From contig BCJJ01000039.1 of assembly GCA_039545355.1 (NCBI GenBank), positions 45,051 through 109,050 on the forward strand: DNA of 64,000 nucleotides. Direction: 5' to 3'. Every line of letters begins with the position of its first letter. Within the stretch, counting starts at the first letter, position 1. The position numbers were made by a program, and so were the translations under genes. Below the pieces are notes generated by a model. It did not search any database, had not been told where the DNA came from, and saw nothing but the letters and a program-made list of their open reading frames with translations. Below are positions 3,162 to 58,193 of this stretch, in pieces. This stretch comes from Trichosporon coremiiforme (Eukaryota > Basidiomycota > Tremellomycetes > Trichosporonales > Trichosporonaceae).

Positions 3162-5302
3162 GTTAGCTTCTGCCTAAGGTCGGGGGTTGGAGGGTGAGAC
3201 CGGAGCAGAGCAGGGCGGGAGGGGGCGGCGATTCGAAGCGAGTCGATAACAGTGAGAAGCCAAGGTGCGACGGTGGGCTGTAGGGTGAGGTCGTGGATGC
3301 GATGGATCGGGTAGAGGTGACTTGTCAGGACAGAGGGAAGGGGCGTCGAGGAGATGCGGGCAGGGCGGAACGCAGAGGGGAAGGATGTGCTGGATGGAGA
3401 GCGGGATCGCAATAGTTGTGGGCGCCGGGCTGTCGACGGGGTGGTGCACGAGTCTGTTTGGAGGAGGGAGTGGAAAGGAAGGAGGGAGAAGGAAAAAGGA
3501 GAATGCTTGTGAAGAGAGGGGAGTGTTGTGTTGAATTGTGTGTTGTGTCGTGTGGATTGGGTTTCGTGAGGGTGCGTTGGGTGCCGATGGGTCAACTGGG
3601 TGAACTCAAGTGTGGGTGTCCGGGATGACTGCCTGGGTTTGGGTCGGGTTTGAGGGAATGGTGATAACCAGCGCAAGTCGTCGGCCGTTCACTCATGCAT
3701 AACGTAGTCCGGTGTGCAGACTGGCTCCAACGAACGTCAGCGGTTAGCGGTAGCGGCGTGCGTGCATAGGGAATGGGTGCACCGAGGCCCGCCGCGGCGA
3801 GGCCATACTATGCACAGGCTGAGTTGCTACGTGCTGAGCGCTCTGCGGGTTGGGGGTCGGGGGTTGCGTACAAGGTGACACCTGTCCCTTGTCCCTGGCT
3901 GGGCTGCCAGTCTTAGCCTTACGGCGTCGCGCCTGGGTTGCAGCCTCAACCGCGCACAATGCGACGGGTTCACAGGGCTTTGCAGCATGCATAGAGCGAG
4001 CGACAATCCGGCTCCCATGGCACAGGGTTGCAGCCCGTTGGCCGCCCATCCTCCCGTGGCCTCCCATCCACTCAGCATCCCCCGCACACTCAGCGCTCAC
4101 CACGCACGTACTGCGCGGAGGCAAACACCATCGCCGCGTCAACGCGTCCACGCGTTCCACTCATCACACAGCCAACCGGTTCTCAGCATCCACACCAGGC
4201 ACGGCCGCTTCCTCGCTGCATCGTCCATGCATCCAGCTCCTAGCTCCTTCCATACCCAGCATCCTGCTTCTGCAGCGCTCTTCATTTCCCGCACCTCGTT
4301 CCCGTACCCGTCCACTTGCTCCTAATCATCCATAGGCGCCCTGCTCACATGCCAGCCCCATCCCGCCAACGCCGCACTCGTGTCCCGCACTCACCGCACC
4401 CCGCGCACTCCGCGTGATCAAGGTTTGCTAGCCTCAGGTCGTCATTACACCGACCCACTGCAAAGCTATATTTTACATGTCTACTGCTATTGCCCCCGCG
4501 TCTGTGCCACTCTTCTCTACTCAATCTCCCCTCGAGGGCTTGCCGGCCGGGGTATCCGGTGCAGGATCCCGTATCTGTGGTCGTCGTCAGCTCCTGCCAT
4601 TCCCCTTCCATTCTTCTGGGCTCAATCAGATGACTGCCCTGCACCACTTACCCGACTCCACAGCCCAACAGTCCCGAGCCGCCCCACTTCTCATTGGGGA
4701 TCACTACCACTTCGCGAAGATTGCTAAAGACGTCAGCAGACATGCCGGATGGGTAACCCGGATGGGTAACGGTTCCGCAAACGGTGCTTGGTGCCCTCCA
4801 CAAGGAAGGTCGCCATACGCTGGAAGGGTGGTATTCGTCGGATTCCTTTAACCAGTGGGCGACACGCAGGAGGACACAGTCCCTGTGGTGGGAGTGCGTT
4901 CAGTCGCGCGGACGTGGTCATAGGTACCAAACGTACACTCCATGCTGGGGAAACAAGCAATGTCGGCCAGTGCCTCCGTCGTTTTGGGAGCGACCGTAAG
5001 GCACGAGCCAGGACTGTACCACCAAGACGCGACTCCGACATGCCGGCAACATTACCAAAACATGTACGCAAGCCGTCCTTCCTTTCAGTGCACTCAACAT
5101 GCGGCCTATAGGGTGTCTTTGGGCCGCAGATCACCAGACCACAGGCTCAACCCCCGAGCCGTCTAGTCGGGTCCACCATGGCCTGACGTCCTTGCTTGGC
5201 TACGCCAACGGTAGGCCTGAACTCTACCACCGCCAGAGCCGGCCCAGGAACTTGTCCCCACCAGGCTCAAGCCCGGAAGGGAGCACACTGCTGACAGAAT
5301 AC
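3162..5302. other. Intergenic between kinase and GRASP genes
   Basis: About 2.1 kb upstream of the kinase. A purine-biased stretch (3300-3530 on plus) sits just upstream of the kinase start and may be its promoter and 5' UTR. I searched the part next to the GRASP gene for its missing C-terminal exons (WGGEG and GVGYG motifs) and saw none. No other gene is supported. Confidence 0.4.
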
Positions 5303-28133: not shown

Positions 28134-28979
28134 CTACACGTTGAGCTGGATGATGTGCTCAAGAGCGGCATTGAGCTGGGCGCGGAGCTCCTGGTTCTCC
28201 TGCTCGAGCTCGACGGAGCGCTTACAGTGGTCACCACCGCCCGACTGCGTGGGCTGGGGGTTCTGCGACGAAGAGGGGGTCGGCTTGCCGCCGTCGCCAC
28301 CGCCTGAGGGAGAGGGAGAAGACGAGGGCTTGCCGCCGTCACCGCCGCTGGAGGGAGTAGGAGAGCTCGAGGGCTTACCACCATTCGAAGAGGGGGTAGG
28401 CTGACTACCGCCGGACGAGGGCGTGGGGTTGCCACCGCCAGACGAGGGCGTGGGGTGGCCACCGCTGGACGAGGGCGTGGGGTTGCCACCGCCGGACGAG
28501 GGCGCGGGGTTGCCACCACCGGACGAGGGCGTGGGGTGGCCGCCGCCGGACGAAGGAGTGGGCTGGCTGCCGCCGGACGAAGGAGTGGGCTGACCGCCAC
28601 CAGACGAAGGGGTCGGCTGACCGCCGCCGGAGGAGGGGGTCGGCTGACCGCCATCGGAAGACAGGGTAGGCTGGCCATCGCCGGAGGTAGGAGGGCCAGT
28701 GGGGATGGGAGGGCCGGTAGGGTGGGGGCCGTCCGTGGGACCGCCAGTGGGCCAAGGGCCGGGACCACCGCCGTCACCGCCGTCACAGTTGCAGAACTTG
28801 TGGGCGAGGCTGAAGAAGTCCTTCTTGCAACAGAGAGCGCAGAGAAGGCCGAAGGTACGGGTGTTGAGCTGCTGGAGCTCGGCGCGGGCGACGATGTCCT
28901 GGTTCTGGATGGGAGCAGGGGCAGCGAGCGCGCTGGACGCCGCCGCGAGGGCAACGAGAACGGTGCCGGAGAGACGCAT
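28134..28979 (-). CDS. Secreted Gly/Pro/Thr/Ser repeat protein with Cys-rich head and coiled-coil tail
   Basis: Unrecognised; single exon, 281 aa. N-terminal signal peptide (MRLSGTVLVALAAASSALAAPA), a short Cys-rich head (LLCALCCKKDFFSLAHKFCNC, residues about 45-66), then about 160 residues of GGGQPTPSS-type tandem repeats with Asn/His/Gln variants. The C-terminus is different: a Cys-Lys-Arg followed by VELEQENQELRAQLNAALE, a heptad-patterned helix that could form a coiled coil. The layout of extended disordered spacer between a disulfide-rich head and a dimerising tail suggests an extracellular or wall protein; this is inference. Confidence 0.8.
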   Translation of the reverse strand: MRLSGTVLVALAAASSALAAPAPIQNQDIVARAELQQLNTRTFGLLCALCCKKDFFSLAHKFCNCDGGDGGGPGPWPTGGPTDGPHPTGPPIPTGPPTSGDGQPTLSSDGGQPTPSSGGGQPTPSSGGGQPTPSSGGSQPTPSSGGGHPTPSSGGGNPAPSSGGGNPTPSSSGGHPTPSSGGGNPTPSSGGSQPTPSSNGGKPSSSPTPSSGGDGGKPSSSPSPSGGGDGGKPTPSSSQNPQPTQSGGGDHCKRSVELEQENQELRAQLNAALEHIIQLNV

Positions 28980-33523: not shown

Positions 33524-35569
33524 CTAGTGAGAGGCCTTCTCCGCGTCCTTCTCAGCAGTAGCGACACCCGTCTCGTTGAGCTCATGGTCAAGCGTCTCCT
33601 GCTGCCTCTGTCGCTGCTCCTCAGAGTAGAACTCATTAGCCTCGCGCTCGAGGTACTTTGCGTTCTCAATCTTGGCCTGGTCCGGGTCGACCATCCACAC
33701 GAACACGATGCCGAGCAGTCCAAGACCGAGGCAGAACCAGTACGCCGCGTTCGTGTTGCCGTGCGCGCGCTCGTTGATTGCGCTCGAGATGAAGGGACCG
33801 GTGAAGCCGGAGGTACGGTTGATGGTGGCGAAGAGGGCGAAGAAGAGGTACATCTTCGGAGCGGGGACGACCTCGGAAATCATCGTAATAGAGTAAGAGC
33901 CCCAGGCGGCGGTCTGGAAGTTCCAGCATTGGATGACCCAGAATTCCCACGCTGCACTGTTAGCAACTTACTCCTCACTGATCAAATCATGCACTGCCCG
34001 CCTTGGGCACCCGTGCACACTTACAGTTGTGGAATCCAATTTTGTTCGTCCAGGTTCCGATCGCGCCCCACAGCTGCGGGATGAGGGTCATGATGGCGCC
34101 GTAGCGCGTGAGCGTCTTGATGGAGAACTTGAAGCGCTTGTGCATGAAGAGGATGAAGACGGTGCCGAGACCTCCGGCGACATCCGCGAGCAGGCCGAAA
34201 GCCGAGTTCTGGACGGGGTCAAAGTTGATAACGTTGGCCTGGAGAGTGCCCGTGATACCGCCGGCGGTACCGCTCGCCTCGCCGAGCAGAGCGTAGGCGA
34301 TGAGGTACCAAACTGCGTTCCTCAGGTTGACGACGGCCTTGGCCGCGCTCCACGCCTGGCGGGGACCGACTTGCCAGATGGGCACGCCGTCCGGCACCTG
34401 CTGGCCGGGACGGTGCTTGCCGATGATGAAGAAGGGGAGACAGCACACGACAATGGCACCACCGAAGTATCCGAGCAGGACGCGGTAAGCCTTGATGACT
34501 ACGTTGTCGGCTGTGCTGTTGTGCGTGATCGCGTACGAGATGCCTATGGCGGCGCCGTAGAAGACGACGACGAGCGCGGAGCCGACAATGTTACAGATGT
34601 TGTAGAGCTTGGCGCGCTCGTACTGGTCGACGAGGTCGTGCTCCTCGGGGCTGCGGGTCAGCTATGTCCGGCGTGAGTAGGAAGGCGCCCCTCCAGAGAT
34701 GTGACTCAGGGAGGCATTGGGAACAAGGACACTTACGTCTTCAGGCCGGCACGAACATCAGCCTCTGAGCGCAGCACAGCGGGCAGGTTGCGCGCAATGG
34801 ACGGGAACGTCGCCTGGTAGAAAGACACCGAGATGTTGTATCCAAGCTGACCGACAATCCACAGGCCGTTGGCGAGCTCCCACTGCGACGGCTTATAAAC
34901 GCCGATCAGTCCGAAGGTCATCGCAGAGCACAGGGTGGTACCGACTGATCGTTAGCGACCTGGCGCGGGACCGAACGGAAACGTGCGACCTCCTTCAAAA
35001 TCGCCCAAAGAGGAGGAAGGTAGACTCAGTGTACTCACACATAAGAATGTACGGCCTCCAAGTACCGTAGTCTGCATACGGGCCGACAACGAGCATGACA
35101 ACAAGCGTAACAGCGAAGAGGATTCCGGACGAGTCGAGGATGAACGAGTTCAGATACATGTGCGTGCCGCCCCAGGGGATGATGGCCTTCTTGTTACTGT
35201 CTGGGAAGGCCATGGAGAGGAGCTTCTGACGGAGGGGACCGGCTTGCGAACCGATCGGCGTTCCGTTGTTCTGGAAGTCTAGCTATCAGCTCCTACTCAT
35301 GTTACCCGGTTGCAACGCGTGGGAGCAGTCCATTACTCACAGAAGATAGCAAACACGATGTACTCGAGCCTGGTGGTTGGGATGCGCTCTCCCGTGAGCG
35401 GAATCGCGGTCTGCTGGGCCACGATGGCTTCACCGGCGGTTCGTTCCGTGCGGACCGCGACGTCCTTCTCGTCCGCGATGTCGCTGTCGTCCACGCCCGG
35501 GGCGGACACAACGGCCTCGAGCCGCTCGACGTGCTCGACCCGGGGCTTCTCTTCTCCGACTGCGGCCAT
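33524..35569 (-). CDS. ATG22: Atg22-family vacuolar permease (MFS-type)
   Basis: Vacuolar efflux permease family (amino-acid export after autophagy in yeast). Exons 35569-35341, 35278-35039, 34944-34737, 34650-34025 and 33951-33524 give 576 aa in frame. Hydrophilic N-terminus of about 60 residues; then EYIVFAIFYFQNNG, LNSFILDSSGILFAVTLVVM, VGPYADYGTWRPYILM, ANGLWIVGQLGYNISVSFYQ, and the family-typical end with FFALFATINRTSGFTGPFIS, then WMVDPDQAKIENAKYLE. About eleven or twelve membrane helices. The C-terminal tail is acidic and rich in Glu/Gln. It could be a paralog of the canonical Atg22 rather than the ortholog. Confidence 0.8.
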
Positions 35570-38401
35570 GATTGCTTAACTGCGGTAGTTCTGGTAGATG
35601 TGAGGGGGGCTAGATGTCCGGTTCCTGGAGTCCGTCGGGTAGATGGATCTCCTGGAGCTTCTGAAGTCGTTAGGTAATGAGCTGAATAGAGGAGTACTAT
35701 GAGTGATCTGTTGAACGGGATATGGATCGCACGAACACGCTCGAGCAGCTCTTATACCCAGTGGGCTAGCGCCGTGCCCCACATCTAGTCTGATTACCAG
35801 CGCGAGGCTCCACAGGTTGCTGTTGCCCCGCAACCCGAGTCCGCGCCGCATGCTGGGGGCCCTTTGGCCGGTGGGCCGCTAACATTCGGAGCGCGTGTAG
35901 GGCCACTTGCCACAGCGCAGGCGAGTGAAGAACAGCCGGGCAAAGAGCCGCTTTTCTCTAAGCTTAAAAGGGAGCACGCGGGTCGAGCCGTGTCAGGCCT
36001 GTCACATGCTGCCCCGTCATGTGAGGTGGGCAGGTGGTTGTGCCTGCTGACACCGCCGCATGCCGTATTGGAGCGCTCGATCTCCGCGGGGCCGTCAGCG
36101 GGGGTGAGTGGGTGAGCGGTTAGTGACGGGCCGTACGGGCCGTCATAGCGGGGAAGACACGAGACGAGCAGGGTCGAGACGTGCCGAGGCAGGATGGCCC
36201 TCTGCGTTCCCAGGAATAGACGGCAGAATCGTTGCTTGGTGGGAGGACAGAGGTACTGAGGAGACCAAGGGGACAGGCGTAAGGGCGGAGGTGCGGTCCG
36301 AATCGACGCTAAACTAAAGGTAGTGGTCGGTATATCCGGACCGGGCGTCCTCTTTCCTCCTGTAGCGCGGCAGCACCGATCGCGGATGGCCGCGGCGAAC
36401 CCCTGGGAATACACTTAGGATCGATGCACAGCTTCAAGGAGCGAGACGCGATGCTCGATGCTCAATGTGCTGTCGAGTTGCGGTTGGGAATTAACCGAGG
36501 AGATCAAGGAGATCAGTAGCAGATAGGAGCGAGGTAATCTTGGTTCGGGCTGCGTTTTCTGGGTCCGCTCTCCGATGGTCACCAGACCATTCTAGCGGCG
36601 TCGCGGCGTAACGAATCACCAGTACGGACCAGCGACCAGTGGGTTACACACATTGCGATCCAGGCCCGCCTGGCTCGATCATCCTTGATCATCGTCTTGA
36701 TAATCAGCGAACGGCGCTCGCCGTCGACTGCGAGTGTTAGAAGTCGTCCGTTGTACTCCCGCGTGCCTCAAGGAATCCGTCAAAGGATTCGGAAAGGGCA
36801 AAGGTTCGGTTGGCCCCACCCGGGAGCTCTCACCGGTGAAAGTGCCGAAGTCAACTTGCCGCTGTTCCTGGGCCCAACATGCCTTCAACTTGACGCAACC
36901 GAAGCTCGAGAGTACGAGAGTCTTGGTTTTTTGGAGCTGAGCTTTGCTGGAACTGAGGATGGTTGATCCGCACGAGGTCGTGCGACGACGCTGACGACGA
37001 CTGTCAGAGGATCGGGGAAGGCACGGAGATGCGCGCAGAGCGGTGGCTCGCAGATGGGCAAACCCGATCACGCGGAATGGAGCACGCGGGGCACGAGGGG
37101 GCACACAGGGCAGGGGCGAACACGCCGATCGGACAAAGCCAAGCGCGCCGAGATCGGCTCGATGGTCTCCCTCCGTCCTTTGGAAGCTCGGTCAGCCCTC
37201 AAGCATCCATCCGCTTGTTCACTGTCGTGAGCACTTCCCCACCAACCATCAATTACACCAGCCATGAACCTTCGTTGACGATACGACGTCACCGATCAGA
37301 GATGTGCCGATACTGAAGTGTGTCTACCTCCGCAGACCGCAACGCCCTTCGGACTCAGCTTGCCCACGCCTCCACCTCTACCGCGCTGATCGCTGACCTC
37401 GCACCTGGGGGCGCACTCTCCACGCGACGCTCTTCTACTGATCTGCGCCCCACGCGCACCAGCAACGCCTCCGCAGCACACGGGCGCAAGAGCCCGGACC
37501 CGGAAGACGCTCTCGCCCTCGTGAGTTTCGGCGAACATTCCTCGGCGCCCCGACCATCGCACTCAGCTGGAGCCAGCTTTCCGACATCTCCTCCCTGCCA
37601 CGGATGCCCAGCAACATGCAACCAAGGAACAGATACTCCGTCACGCCGAGACCGTTGCACACAGTCATCGGTGCGAGAGACATTCGATCGAGATCCTGGC
37701 TGGGTGCAGATGTGCAGAGGCCAGAGGCGTCGTTGCGTGTGGGCACGGACACCTGGAGGGGTGCGATTTCTCAGCAATGTCCGTGCGGCTCTGTCTTCCG
37801 TCGACGGCGTACTATGGCTGAATGCTGTTCCTTCGGGGCTCATGCCTCGCTCTGCAATTGCGAAGCCCCGGGATCCAGAGCTTAGGCATGCGATGTTCGC
37901 TGACCTTAGCGATCCTCGCTCCTGAGAGGATCTGCCGATCGCCTTTGAGACCAGTCGCGGACACACAGAAACGCACTATTGCAACATGTCTGACCGCCCT
38001 CCGCGACGTAACGAGCGCTTCCCCCCTTCCCAGCCACCACTGTCTGCAGCATGGCCTTCCTTCAACCCCTAGACGATGCCTCAGAGGCTCAAAGAGGAAG
38101 GCGCACGCCAAGCCGGCCAGACAAGCCTGACACGCCAGGCAAGTGCGAGGCAGGCGCTACGAAACGTTGCTCGCGTCGGCCAGGGAAGCGAGCGCACACA
38201 GACGTAGCTGCGTTCGCTTGGCCCGGTCCCTCGTCCAACCCTCGCAACGTATCTCAACTCATGCTCCTCCACTCGGCCTTCCTCTTCGTTCACAACTGGC
38301 CCTCCTCCCTCCTCATTCCCATCGCCCTCCTCTTGCCGCTCCCTTTCTCTGGTCACATACAGACTGACCTCCGTGACAACTACCAACACCAAACCAACAC
38401 C
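35570..38401. other. Long gene-free region
   Basis: 2.8 kb between two divergent genes. The last 150 bases before 38402 are a CT-rich tract followed by CCAACACCAAACCAACACC, the leader style of strongly expressed fungal genes, and probably serve the His/Cys-rich gene. No gene supported further upstream. Confidence 0.4.
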
Positions 38402-39709
38402 ATGCCCGGCATCCAGGTCATCACCGACGGACACCCCGACGGACACCCCACCGTCGTTCACCACGACGCCCACGCCCACTGCTACCAGGAGACCAAGTGC
38501 ACCTGCACTTGCGCTTGCACTACCTGCAAGCCCATTGCCAAGTGCTGCTCTCCCGCTCCAGCTGTCCACCAGGGTGTCCAGTGCTGCCCTCCCGCGACCT
38601 TGCACTCGCACTCGAACGTCCACCTCAACGCCGCGCCCCACGTCCACGGCCACAACAACATCCACTCGCACGAGTTTGGCCACCACGGGCACGGCCACTC
38701 GCACGTCGAGGTGTCTGAGTCGCAGGCATCGTGCGGCAATGCGACTGCGCAGGTCACGACCCACACGTCCCACGTCCAGGTCCACGAGCACCTGAACCAC
38801 GACGTCTGCTTCAGCCTCCACCAGCTGAACGCGCTCACGCTCCCTCCCGTGCAGTTCTCGTCGGCGGCGCACCCGCCCGTCCACCCCTGCCCCGTCAAGG
38901 CCGCCATTCCCACTGTGTTCAAGTTTGACGCCCGCCTCGTCCGCGACGAGCTCCACCACCCCCTCCTCTGCTACCTCGCCGAGGGCGTGCAGCCGCAGCT
39001 CTTCAACACCGGCGCCGGCACCCACTGCGGCACCCCTGTCGGCGCTGCTGCCGCCAAGATCGTCTCGGGCCGTCAACTGCTTGCCGTCGAGCGCCCCGAT
39101 GGCTACCGCGGCCTCCAGTGTGTTGCGTACGGCACGCTCCTGCTCAGCATCAACGCTGCGCTGCTCGAGGACAGCGCCCGCAACAGCTGCATCGACGACA
39201 AGCGCCTCTGGTCCATCTCGGCTCCCTGCGGCAGCCCCTGCACCGCCGGGCTCGAGCTGCGTGTCGGCGGCGTCGCCTCTGTCGCTGTCGAGCTCCACCC
39301 CTCCAACGTGGTCAGCAACGCCATGATCGACCGTGTCCTCCGCCTGTGCAAGGCGGGAGCTACCTACGACACCGCCATGGGCCGCGCGGTCGCCACGTTC
39401 AAGGACGGCTGCCCCGTCCTGCACACTGATGCGCTCACGCTCCTGGGCCAGGTTTGGGCCCGCTTCGGCCGCGAGAGCCTGCGCCAGGACGCAAAGTGCG
39501 CCTGGGTCGTGCTCACCAACCTCGAGCGTGCTATTGTATTCCGCCGCGCCGGAGGCGAGCTCAAGGTCTCCCACACCATCAGCAATGACGGCACCAGCAC
39601 CCCCCGCGATTCGGTTCAGAACATCTACTGTCTTTTCCTCGCGCTCGGCGTGCTTGAGAAGCATCAGTACGCTGCTCCCGCGCACGTCGACGTCGTCCAC
39701 TTGATCTAA
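38402..39709 (+). CDS. Protein with His/Cys-rich, probably metal-binding N-terminus
   Basis: Unrecognised single-exon protein of 435 aa. The ATG at 38402 sits in CACCATGCC context after a CT-rich leader; the frame continues upstream to an ATG at 38051 but that part looks like leader. Residues 1-145 are packed with His and Cys: HPDGHPTVVHHDAHAHC, then CTCTCACTTC and KCC, then HVHGHNNIHSHEFGHHGHGH. Such HxH and CxC runs bind Cu, Zn or Ni in other proteins. The remaining 290 residues form a globular-looking domain (LLCYLAEGVQPQLFN, RLWSISAPCGSPC, CAWVVLTNLERAIVFRR) that I cannot place. Codon use is strongly biased to C at third positions, suggesting high expression. Confidence 0.8.
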   Translation: MPGIQVITDGHPDGHPTVVHHDAHAHCYQETKCTCTCACTTCKPIAKCCSPAPAVHQGVQCCPPATLHSHSNVHLNAAPHVHGHNNIHSHEFGHHGHGHSHVEVSESQASCGNATAQVTTHTSHVQVHEHLNHDVCFSLHQLNALTLPPVQFSSAAHPPVHPCPVKAAIPTVFKFDARLVRDELHHPLLCYLAEGVQPQLFNTGAGTHCGTPVGAAAAKIVSGRQLLAVERPDGYRGLQCVAYGTLLLSINAALLEDSARNSCIDDKRLWSISAPCGSPCTAGLELRVGGVASVAVELHPSNVVSNAMIDRVLRLCKAGATYDTAMGRAVATFKDGCPVLHTDALTLLGQVWARFGRESLRQDAKCAWVVLTNLERAIVFRRAGGELKVSHTISNDGTSTPRDSVQNIYCLFLALGVLEKHQYAAPAHVDVVHLI

Positions 39710-40200
39710 CGTGAGTTGCGTTTCTGATCGTAACTAACACCAGCATCTACGGACATGTGGTCGTGAGTTCCGGCTACGTAGCTTGGGAGCTGAAATTAGC
39801 ACACCGCCAAGTCGTAGGCAAGAGCCAAACGGCTACACACCATGTCCAACCAGCAGCTGACTTCAGCCCACTGCAAGCAAGCAGCAACAAAACATCTAAA
39901 CCCCAATTGAGAGTGAAGGGACACTTAATCAAAGTCAATCAGGTAGTTCAGTCGTTGTAGAAGTCCATGCACAGATGTACATAGCACGTACTTCCAGTTC
40001 AGACGGCGAGCAGGTGTGTCTTCCTCGTCAGGAGGGTGACGTGAGGGGGTGAGGTGTTGTTTGGTTCCGCGTGGTCGGTGTCTGGGATCTGAAACTGGAT
40101 CTGCGAGAAGCAAGGTGTTGGTGGAGGCGAGTCCAATCATCATCGCCGTTCCAAATCCCTCTTTCCACTCCATTTCTCACGAGCTCGATTTGCAAAGGAA
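39710..40200. other. 3' flank of His/Cys-rich gene
   Basis: A minus-strand 82-codon frame (39925-40173) shows a plausible but unproven small protein; otherwise nothing. It leads directly into the intron-signal array. Confidence 0.3.
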
Positions 40201-41579
40201 GTGAGGTATGCTCTCAATTCGATGGACTTCAGCTGACTCGCAGGCAAGTTACAGTATACGTCCGCGTTGGAGCTGACAGCAGTCTGCAGGAGAGGAGCAA
40301 CGGTAGGCTGGGGCGACGGGTTGGTTAACTGACGCAGGTAAGCTAGCAAGGTGAGGAGGGTGTTGGCTGAATCTCAGACGATTCATAGGTGGTGAGCCCC
40401 TTAGAGCTTCCAAAAAGCTGGCTAATAGGTGAGCTACGCGCAGGTACCCACAGCTGACAGCAGCCAGCGAGGAAGGGAGGCGAGTCACAAATGCCCGGCG
40501 GAGCCGTTCGGCAGGTGAGCTTCCCCGATGACGTTCGACAACTGATAGTAACCAAATCGATGGATGAACAGTAGGCTGATTTCCTTCCGCCGCAAGCTGA
40601 CTTGCAGTACTGCGAGAGGTGAGCTTAGATACGCAACGGATCAACTGGCATGCAGCAGGGATACGTGCGAGTGCTATGCTGCCGCTCTACATCCACAAGC
40701 TGACTCGCAGGTGAGCTGCCCCGGGGAATTCACAAACTAACAACAGCAAACTCAATGCATGAGCAGTGAGCTGATATCTCGCCCCTGAAGCTGACTGGCA
40801 GCTCTGTGAGATGTCAGCTTAGTCGTGCAGCAAACCAGACGGTACGCAGCAGTGATGCGAGAGTGGTACGCTGTCAATTGTCCTCAAACAAGCTGACTCT
40901 CAGATGAGCAGTCAAGAAAGGGCGGGGTCTCGCAGACAATAGGAGAGCTGAAAGTGGTGAGCTTTGTCAGAGGACCGAGAAGCTGATCTGGCAGGTGAGC
41001 TGCGCGAACCAGCATAGCGAAGGTGTCGGCAGCAAAAGGAGGTGAGCTGGATACGGTAGGGGGATAGCTGACCTGCAGTACTGTTAGGAGTGAGCTTCTT
41101 TCGCCATCATCCCAGCTGACACGCAGCAGCCATCATTTGGGGCAGTATGCTGGATGGACTGTATCAGGAGCTGACCCGCAGGTGAGCTACTCGAATTTTC
41201 CAGAGCTGTCTACAGTCCAAACCAGGGAGGAGAGAGAGTGCGGTGCGACCGAATGGCGGCAAACTGACTGACTGGTGAGCACTCCGGTGTAACTTGCGAG
41301 CTGACGGGCAGGCTGTGACTAAAAAAGGGGTGAGGCGAGCTGGAAAGGGGATACAGATGAGCTGACCGGCAGTGCAGACCACAGGATACAGCTGTTTTCT
41401 CCGCAGCTGTAGCTGACACCTAGCTGGCGGTCACTCGCAGGAGCGAGCTCCCACTGGCAAACGTAGAATGCAAGTTGAGCTTCTTAAAGAAACTGCATAG
41501 CTGACAAACAGCTCGCCGAGGAGCGAGTCACTGAAAGCTGTAAACAGTTGTCGCAGTGAGCGAGCTGACTGGCAGAGAG
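40201..41579 (+). repeat. Array of intron-type splice signals (branch-acceptor-donor units)
   Basis: The plus strand holds 15 exact AGCTGAC motifs (starts 40231, 40271, 40452, 40595, 40698, 40789, 40891, 41066, 41114, 41169, 41299, 41360, 41411, 41499, 41563), each followed within 2-3 nt by CAG (TAG at 41411). Ten exact GTGAGCT donors lie at 40429, 40515, 40619, 40711, 40766, 40957, 40995, 41042, 41090 and 41182. Four donors directly abut an acceptor (CAG then GTGAGCT at 40515, 40711, 40995, 41182). Sequence between motifs is not repeated. Two of the 13-mers also terminate introns of real genes in the window: AGCTGACTCTCAG in the thiolase and AGCTGACACGCAG in the ALDH-like gene. Most likely a transcribed non-coding locus made of minimal introns and micro-exons, or a decayed tandem repeat. 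No coding frame runs through it. Confidence 0.7.
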
Positions 41580-57637: not shown

Positions 57638-58193
57638 CGCGGAGGTCGAGAAGGCGAGCGATGAGGGTGTCGACGGACAGAAGACTGAAGGGGCGATTGC
57701 GGTGGGCTCCTCTGGGGATATGAAGGAGCGGAAGACATCAGAGGTGAACGGCGCGGAGCAGGAGGCTGTCGTGAACGGACCTGCCGAGGGTGAGAATGAC
57801 GGGAGGGCCAGCATCTCGGCGAGTATCACCGACGAAACAGCGTCTCTGGCCCCCCAGTCGATGTGGTAGAGTGAGGGCTTGCGGTGAGCCTAGGCGGCGA
57901 GCGCCGCTTCCCGCCCACGTCGATCGTGTGGTGGGCCCGGTGAAGGCATCAGGCGACAGACCAAATGATGATCAGAGCGATAATCAGAGCGTTAATCAGA
58001 GCGTTGATCAGAGCGTTGATCAGAGCGTTGATCAGAGCGTTAATCAGAGCGTTGATCAGAGCGTTTGGGCGGTGAGAGTCAGTCTGGGCTGCTATGATGG
58101 TGGTGTGCAGAGCACAATAGCTCAGTAGTTAATGCCCAGCACACTTCAGCCTGACCCCGTGGTATCAGCCTTCTTCCATCACGCTACATCCGT
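57638..58193. other. 3' flank with acidic overlapping frame and minisatellite
   Basis: Contains the acidic Glu/Lys/Gly frame 57621-57869 and a 12-bp tandem repeat (listed separately). No independent gene supported. Confidence 0.4.
57968..58063 (+). repeat. 12-bp tandem repeat, 8 units
   Basis: Eight contiguous copies of TTGATCAGAGCG with A/T and G/A variants at the first three positions. In one frame it would read (D/N)QSV repeats, but that frame has no gene support. Confidence 0.95.

Follow-up and report, generated by a model that had tools for sequence, protein, structure and literature searches.

A Putative Noncoding Gene Built as a Chain of Micro-Introns in Trichosporon coremiiforme, and Similar Arrays Across the Genome

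The Array and Its Splice Signals

We analyzed a stretch of 64,000 nucleotides of Trichosporon coremiiforme DNA (contig BCJJ01000039.1, here C39, positions 45,051 to 109,050), which is called the window below. An array of splice signals of ~1.38 kb lies on its + strand at 40201..41579. In our reading, this window array is rather likely to be a noncoding RNA gene that consists of a chain of ~37-nt spliceosomal introns and micro-exons, and one of a class selected for dense splicing. The motif AGCTGAC was found 15 times on the + strand between 40231 and 41569 (once on the - strand), and GTGAGCT 10 times, on the + strand only, between 40429 and 41188. The chance level of each 7-mer is low, about 0.14 per strand per 1.38 kb as estimated from shuffle means. 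In all 15 cases, a CAG or TAG follows 2-3 nt past the AGCTGAC branch motif. These counts agree with the initial annotation of the stretch, as do four junctions at which CAG directly abuts GTGAGCT. Once GTAAGC and GC donors were counted, the acceptor-donor abutments came to seven (40241, 40335, 40426, 40512, 40708, 40992, and 41179), one of which has a GC donor. At these 7 junctions the acceptor runs straight into a donor, as in dual-specific splice sites. Judged from the sequence, the motifs are the branch sites and donors of this fungus, because their spacing equals the modal intron length of the genome.

A splice-site model was trained with the window array masked and with loci L001-L004 excluded (L001 was kept in the spacing and donor statistics). 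At a strict threshold, it predicted 21 introns in the window array, compared with 1 on the reverse complement and 0 in the reversed sequence, and 100 dinucleotide shuffles gave a mean of 0.18 introns and a maximum of 1. The densest other 1.4-kb stretches of the window, with the array excluded, contained at most 4 model introns each. The model output for the array amounts to 21-24 introns (34-44 nt each), with exons of 0-107 nt. In the chain parse, all on the + strand, the first intron, 40201..40243 (43 nt, donor GTGAGGT, alternative start 40206), is joined through a zero-length exon to 40244..40282 (39 nt, GC donor GCAAGTT). Zero-length exons also join 40303..40337 (35 nt) to 40338..40377 (40 nt), 40392..40428 (37 nt) to 40429..40463 (35 nt), the weak GC-donor intron 40667..40710 (44 nt) to 40711..40746 (36 nt), 40957..40994 (38 nt) to 40995..41032 (38 nt), and 41145..41181 (37 nt) to 41182..41215 (34 nt). 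The remaining introns are 40571..40607 (37 nt), 40619..40655 (37 nt), 40766..40801 (36 nt), 40866..40903 (38 nt), 41042..41078 (37 nt), 41090..41126 (37 nt), 41275..41311 (37 nt), 41335..41372 (38 nt, GC donor GCGAGCT), 41470..41511 (42 nt, GC donor GCAAGTT), and the last one, 41540..41575 (36 nt). Two + strand candidates are absent from the chain parse: 40515..40548 (34 nt, alternative 40515-40607), which abuts the CAG at 40512 and appeared only in a low-penalty coding-aware parse, and a weaker intron at 40813..40849 (37 nt, donor GTCAGCT), which appeared in one coding-aware parse.

The initial annotation had compared the zero-length exons with recursive splicing and stwintrons. Such exons are indeed present, as at recursive splice sites, but neither mechanism is necessary because exons separate most introns. 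In the chain parse of ten arrays, described below, 9 of 253 exons have zero length; six of these lie in the window array and the remaining three in arrays L026 and L031. A close comparison is with recursive or dual-specific sites (AG|GT) and the human UBC tandem array, as portrayed in PMC10809524, where tandem repeats carry splice sites. The UBC repeats code for ubiquitin, whereas the array introns are mostly exon-separated and each has its own branch site. It had also been claimed that the 13-mers of the array end true introns in two genes of the window. Three of the 13 distinct branch-to-acceptor 13-mers do recur in the window, but only these three, at 34651, 46907, and 51735, all on the - strand. 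Two of them fall inside predicted intron-containing genes on that strand, where they might end introns, and the third falls outside the stretch covered by that gene prediction.

Ordinary Introns of the Genome

The genome comprises 42.0 Mb in 134 contigs, with ~60% G+C in the sampled loci. A thiolase ORF of the window has two close matches (96% and 89%); among its named matches, Trichosporonales score best (Cutaneotrichosporon 58%, Apiotrichum 56%), and proteins of Ceratobasidium and Rhizoctonia reach 60-61% over a smaller part of the query, which points to a basidiomycete probably close to the Trichosporonales. The reference sample consisted of 19 loci of ~10 kb at round coordinates (one of which adjoins the window), to which a 3-kb locus and the remainder of the window were added. 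In this sample, donor-branch-acceptor pairs peaked at 35-39 nt (42 vs 1 in the reversed control), and the mode of gene intron length was 36 (n = 73). The commonest gene donor was GTGAGCT (16/70), and the commonest context before the branch core was AG (31/73). The array introns resemble gene introns in donor, branch, acceptor, and length, as expected of U2-type introns. One donor/branch class holds 59 of 79 array introns vs 20 of 73 gene introns. As a separate observation, donor positions 6-7 of gene introns were complementary to the two bases before the branch core, at both pairs, in 27 of 73 cases vs 12.6 expected (5000 shuffles, p given as 0.0000), which would suit either pairing of donor and branch or matched classes (CT-AG, TT-AA). 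This covariation was absent in the array introns of six arrays.

The model was also checked on locus L025, chosen for its cluster of micro-exon matches, which it spliced with exons of 11 and 19 nt. The spliced protein matched Rad51 with an E value of 1e-104, and the best named family was DMC1, although the 227-residue piece falls short of the DMC1 equivalog cut-off; L007, the homeolog of L025, belonged to the training set of the model. Since L025 splices into a DMC1-like protein, this fungus has one or more coding genes with micro-exons between ~36-nt introns.

A Genome-Wide Class of Arrays

The initial annotation had proposed to look for other such arrays, and 15 further ones were read in the 42-Mb genome. 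A strict micro-exon pattern (branch, acceptor, exon of 0-30 nt, donor) occurred 229 times genome-wide vs 4 times in reversed sequence, and a looser pattern 378 vs 85 times. When the next branch was also required, the two patterns gave 34 and 40 matches vs 0 and 0. These three-signal matches sit in 48 loci, the DMC1 gene included, and 11 loci have more than one match. We read 16 loci (L024-L039), of which 15 carry an array and one, L025, is the DMC1 gene. Together with the window array, the 16 arrays contain 384 introns in 32.0 kb, and the strict pattern occurs in them 74 times. No array was found in the 19 sampled loci, where the sole run of five introns was the second DMC1 copy. In ten arrays, the median intron length was 37 (n = 263) and the median exon length 20 (n = 253). 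The variants of the array signals (GTAAGCT, GC donors, and CTAAC branches) also fit splice signals. A subtelomeric location was considered and rejected, as several arrays are located hundreds of kb away from contig ends (for instance C5:734k, C9:940k, C12:443k, C17:670k). By these readings, the class has at least 16 members and probably extends to tens of loci. Among the ranked matches listed in our searches of the open-licence literature, no such loci are described.

Tandem Repeats and the Conservation of Splice Signals

The DNA between the signals of the window array had been described as not repeated. This proved wrong: self-alignment revealed diverged tandem units, 59-69% identical. Unit 1 (40511..40716, + strand), with a period of ~196 nt and several introns, is 69% identical to unit 2 (40707..40909, + strand) over 207 columns (E 1e-25). 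A third, partial copy (41066..41188, + strand) is 67% identical to 40595-40717 over 124 columns (E 2e-11), and 40789-41127 aligns with 41066-41424 at 59.5% over 368 columns. Tandem Repeats Finder reported no array at the window array. The initial annotation had held that the splice signal itself is the conserved part, and that a plain tandem duplication, uniform in similarity at every position, would speak against it. Duplication there is, but the similarity is not equal, and within the diverged units mainly the splice signals are kept. A simple satellite was rejected on the same grounds, given the silence of Tandem Repeats Finder and the unequal conservation of the self-aligned units. Tandem duplication thus accounts for at least part of the growth of the window array, which later diverged everywhere but at the signals.

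Diverged direct repeats that span several introns were found in six of ten arrays tested (C39, L024, L026, L028, L031, and L033). Between repeat copies of these six arrays, identity was 0.88 at donors, 0.88 at branches, and 0.92 at acceptors, compared with 0.655 in exons and 0.57 in intron interiors; an earlier comparison covered four arrays with pairs, and L027 had no self-alignment pair. Simulated neutral copies, aligned likewise, showed nearly equal identity across site classes. A genome search with the window array DNA returned only the array itself, and a cross-comparison of seven arrays gave one short match.

Arrays on Homeologous Contigs

Next to array L031 lies a kinase whose homeolog on contig C6 is 99% identical, and many other kinase matches are paired. 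Because they come in pairs, many genes exist in two diverged copies in this genome; that these copies lie on different contigs suggests a hybrid or duplicated genome. For comparison, six Cutaneotrichosporon assemblies are listed at 19-21 Mb each in PMC10568926. A same-strand intron array was present at the corresponding place on both copies in 5 of 5 homeologous pairs compared, all of which were picked because the pattern matches on both sides.

In the C12/C6 pair (L031/L034), the kinase is 93% and the spacer from kinase to array 81% identical; the arrays have 43 vs 31 introns, and their alignment gave nothing better than E 2e-4. On the reverse strand of L034 (C6:453001-459900), at ~4413-4577, a 66% copy of the L031 upstream spacer (E 4e-8) lies inside the array, which might reflect duplication of a second transcription unit. 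Three further pairs differ in intron number: C5/C17 (30 vs 14 introns, 62-68% similar in patches, with a short flank at 89%), C9/C10 near 0.9 Mb (13 vs 11 introns, with both flanks aligned), and C12/C6 near 0.42 Mb (43 vs 15 introns, with one flank aligned). In the last two, the arrays themselves were unaligned at E 1e-6.

The C10/C9 pair (L033/L035) has 16 introns in each copy; ten of the donors and eleven of the acceptors align with a donor or acceptor of the other copy. Over the whole alignment, identity was 0.92 at acceptors, 0.78 at donors, 0.74 at branches, 0.53 in exons, and 0.41 in intron interiors. In 11 matched introns, the interiors were no more alike than unmatched ones (0.458 vs 0.470, p 0.69), and identity was 0.87 at donors and 0.86 at branches, with acceptors identical in 11 of 11; as these introns were paired by hand on their signals, the signal identities are inflated. 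The DMC1 homeologs showed values of 0.91 in exons, 0.88 at signals, and 0.67 in intron interiors, and the array spacers therefore look more diverged than the DMC1 introns. Judged from the sequence, selection preserves the capacity of the introns to be spliced and takes almost no account of the DNA that separates the signals.

Coding Potential

Whether the arrays might encode protein was judged by several properties. The longest open frame of the spliced arrays showed no excess over shuffles (p 0.11-0.94), in a test of limited power because DMC1 itself reached only p 0.008-0.17 and, in a further run, 0.09. Exon lengths showed no frame preference (80, 86, and 87 in the three classes modulo 3 for the 253 exons of the ten arrays). 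No 3-base periodicity of mismatches was found in the array exons (4 arrays) or in the C10/C9 alignment. The DMC1 homeologs were periodic (0.25 at lag 3 and 0.23 at lag 6, vs 0.02-0.11 at other lags), so that this test separates DMC1 clearly from the arrays. Of 160 gaps in array exons, 30 were multiples of 3, in alignments that are uncertain at such divergence. Ten C10/C9 intervals were compared, three with further unmatched introns were excluded, and of the seven counted as plain exons between matched introns, six differ in length by a number of nucleotides not divisible by 3. The G+C content of array exons was 0.50-0.59 vs 0.63 in DMC1 exons. The same results for periodicity, gap and exon lengths, and open-frame lengths weigh against a micro-exon protein gene that had been suggested by a repeated peptide read by hand in three units.

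The principal alternative is a fast-evolving coding micro-exon gene, for a secreted or disordered protein, whose structure is kept while its sequence diverges. Chains of tiny exons are known from the micro-exon genes (MEGs) of Schistosoma and the bicycle genes of aphids, and the account of the latter in PMC9168663 describes fast sequence divergence with persistent structure. The arrays differ in that their exon lengths lack a frame preference and the lengths of homeologous exons do not keep frame. A real coding gene of this genome, DMC1, does use micro-exons, and coding-aware parses of the window array give frames of more than 100 codons; 20 of 40 shuffles reach an equal frame length. The coding-aware test is weak both ways because the DMC1 controls stand above all shuffles by score but not by length, which 12 and 7 of 40 shuffles reach; the score also rewards introns that the shuffle may lose.

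Several observations weigh against the noncoding, splicing-selected reading, and some of them favor a coding one. The coding-aware frame of L028 has 281 codons, and 0 of 40 signal-keeping shuffles were as long; that of L029 has 210 codons and was matched by 2 of 40. L024, L026, and L027 are unremarkable by coding-aware frame length, yet their total scores lie above all shuffles (20, 20, and 40, respectively). Exons are more conserved than intron interiors between repeat copies (0.655 vs 0.57), and the seven short C10/C9 exons gave an identity of 0.487 when matched vs 0.418 when unmatched, so exon sequence may matter. To these are added the selection of the five pairs and the hand pairing of introns described above. 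Finally, no homeolog of the window array or of its two flanking open reading frames (ORFs), both single copy, was found in the genome, and the evolution of the window array is therefore judged by its internal repeats alone. On balance, a coding gene seems to us unlikely, and we consider the window array noncoding with fair confidence and the whole class with less.

Other Explanations

The arrays might be host genes of small RNAs, like those of small nucleolar RNAs (snoRNAs), in which the introns or lariats are the product and the exons waste. Their gross anatomy is that of SNHG14 (SNORD116/SNORD115), a noncoding transcript with tens of tandem introns, for which the gene description in PMC11608373 gives 29 and 48 tandem snoRNA introns. 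The introns of SNHG14 carry snoRNAs, whereas in the arrays the introns measure ~37 nt and conservation is lowest in the intron interiors. No Rfam match was obtained for the window array (E up to 5) or for nine loci (at the gathering score). To our knowledge, known snoRNAs are also too big for introns of this length, and a host gene is quite improbable.

Neutral relics, that is, duplicated fragments of intron-rich genes that decay without function, would account for the plain tandem duplication and for intron interiors that are saturated between homeologs. Decay would, however, erode signals and spacers alike, and the neutral simulation disagrees strongly with what was observed. In addition, each of the five homeologous pairs examined has an array on either side, and this explanation is accordingly given very little weight. 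AGCTGAC and GTGAGCT are nearly reverse complements, as could be expected of an array of DNA sites for a protein with an incidental likeness to splice signals, but the strict strandedness (15 to 1 for AGCTGAC), donor-to-acceptor spacing that matches the modal intron length, and motif variants that are themselves compatible with splice signals make this hardly credible.

A nest of introners, intron-creating mobile elements, is highly unlikely as well: the intron ends are nearly inverted and one donor/branch class dominates the arrays, but the unrelated interiors, the single short match among seven arrays, and the lack of any other genomic match to the window array DNA contradict it for recent insertions; ancient ones are conceivable. 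Introners are recognized, in the treatment given in PMC9860276, by similar sequence that reaches the splice boundaries. Stwintrons and introners are likewise unusual intron arrangements that multiply, but as nested introns or near-identical copies, whereas the arrays are made of side-by-side introns with unrelated interiors.

Flanking Sequences and Other Features

Upstream of the window array, a pyrimidine-rich stretch at 40141..40180 (+ strand; 77.5% C+T in 40 nt) ends ~20 nt 5' of the first donor and is a possible, if weak, candidate for the transcription start region. A pyrimidine tract as a common upstream feature was rejected, since only some arrays have one and purine-rich windows are about as common. 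Neither CRE-like half-sites nor a scan of 7-mers revealed a convincing promoter motif shared by the sequences upstream of the arrays. The C10/C9 arrays are preceded by a block that is 72% identical over 182 columns, after which the diverged arrays follow. This block and the C12/C6 spacer would fit an independent conserved promoter. The window array may instead be linked to the 3' end of the upstream gene. Such a link is conceivable because a 552-residue ORF (38051-39709) ends there and is followed, one base past its stop, by a strong 33-nt intron at 39711-39743, in the presumed 3' untranslated region.

At L030 (C1:2192601-2194600), an ORF adjoins the array, and its end resembles a Tc1/mariner-type transposase. 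Elsewhere in the window, 28282-28726 contains repeats of 18, 27, 45, and 81 nt (multiples of 3) that overlap - strand ORFs, and perhaps encodes a repetitive protein. About eight copies of the 12-nt unit TGATCAGAGCGT, with 94% matches, lie at 57969-58065.

Proposed Function and Significance

We propose that the arrays are genes selected for the number or density of splicing events, with ~10 to 43 micro-introns each, in which the load of spliceosomes is the function and neither exon nor intron sequence need be conserved. This proposal seems to us about evenly poised between right and wrong. In such a scheme, the locus would be transcribed from its own promoter and the RNA spliced some twenty times, and the target of selection would be the splicing events, with many spliceosomes assembled on a single nascent RNA, rather than the joined or excised sequence. 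The number of introns would keep the noncoding transcript, or its transcription, alive. Alternatively, the many introns might hand the noncoding transcript to RNA interference (RNAi), and a further possibility is that the arrays titrate the spliceosome.

There are precedents in other fungi. According to the findings summarized in PMC3744415, each added intron contributes to RNA accumulation in Cryptococcus, where RNA that lacks introns is degraded; work on stalled spliceosomes in this genus is referenced in PMC5851062. For S. pombe, PMC5322907 presents the intron of a noncoding RNA from the centromere as a platform for RNAi factors. The dg/dh centromeric RNAs of that account share with the arrays a proposed role of spliceosome assembly on noncoding RNA, although their introns are inefficiently spliced, whereas a single array may hold as many as 43 near-consensus introns, and there are many such loci. 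Genes for RNAi are numerous in the present genome, with Piwi-domain matches on four contigs (C14, C3, C17, and C5) and matches to RNA-dependent RNA polymerase on five (C11, C23, C1, C3, and C32), some of the latter with internal stop codons, which may be introns. Given these precedents and matches, splicing-dependent maintenance or a hand-off to RNAi is favored.

If the arrays are spliced, they would be natural genes that uncouple splicing from what it produces. They would allow a direct test of whether recruiting spliceosomes is enough, by itself, to stabilize a transcript, to drive transcription, to feed RNAi, or to titrate the spliceosome. A fungal spliceosome would then be seen to process micro-exons in series, even those of zero length, at sequence-saturated loci whose main footprint is the splice signals. 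Homology searches would overlook such genes in other genomes.
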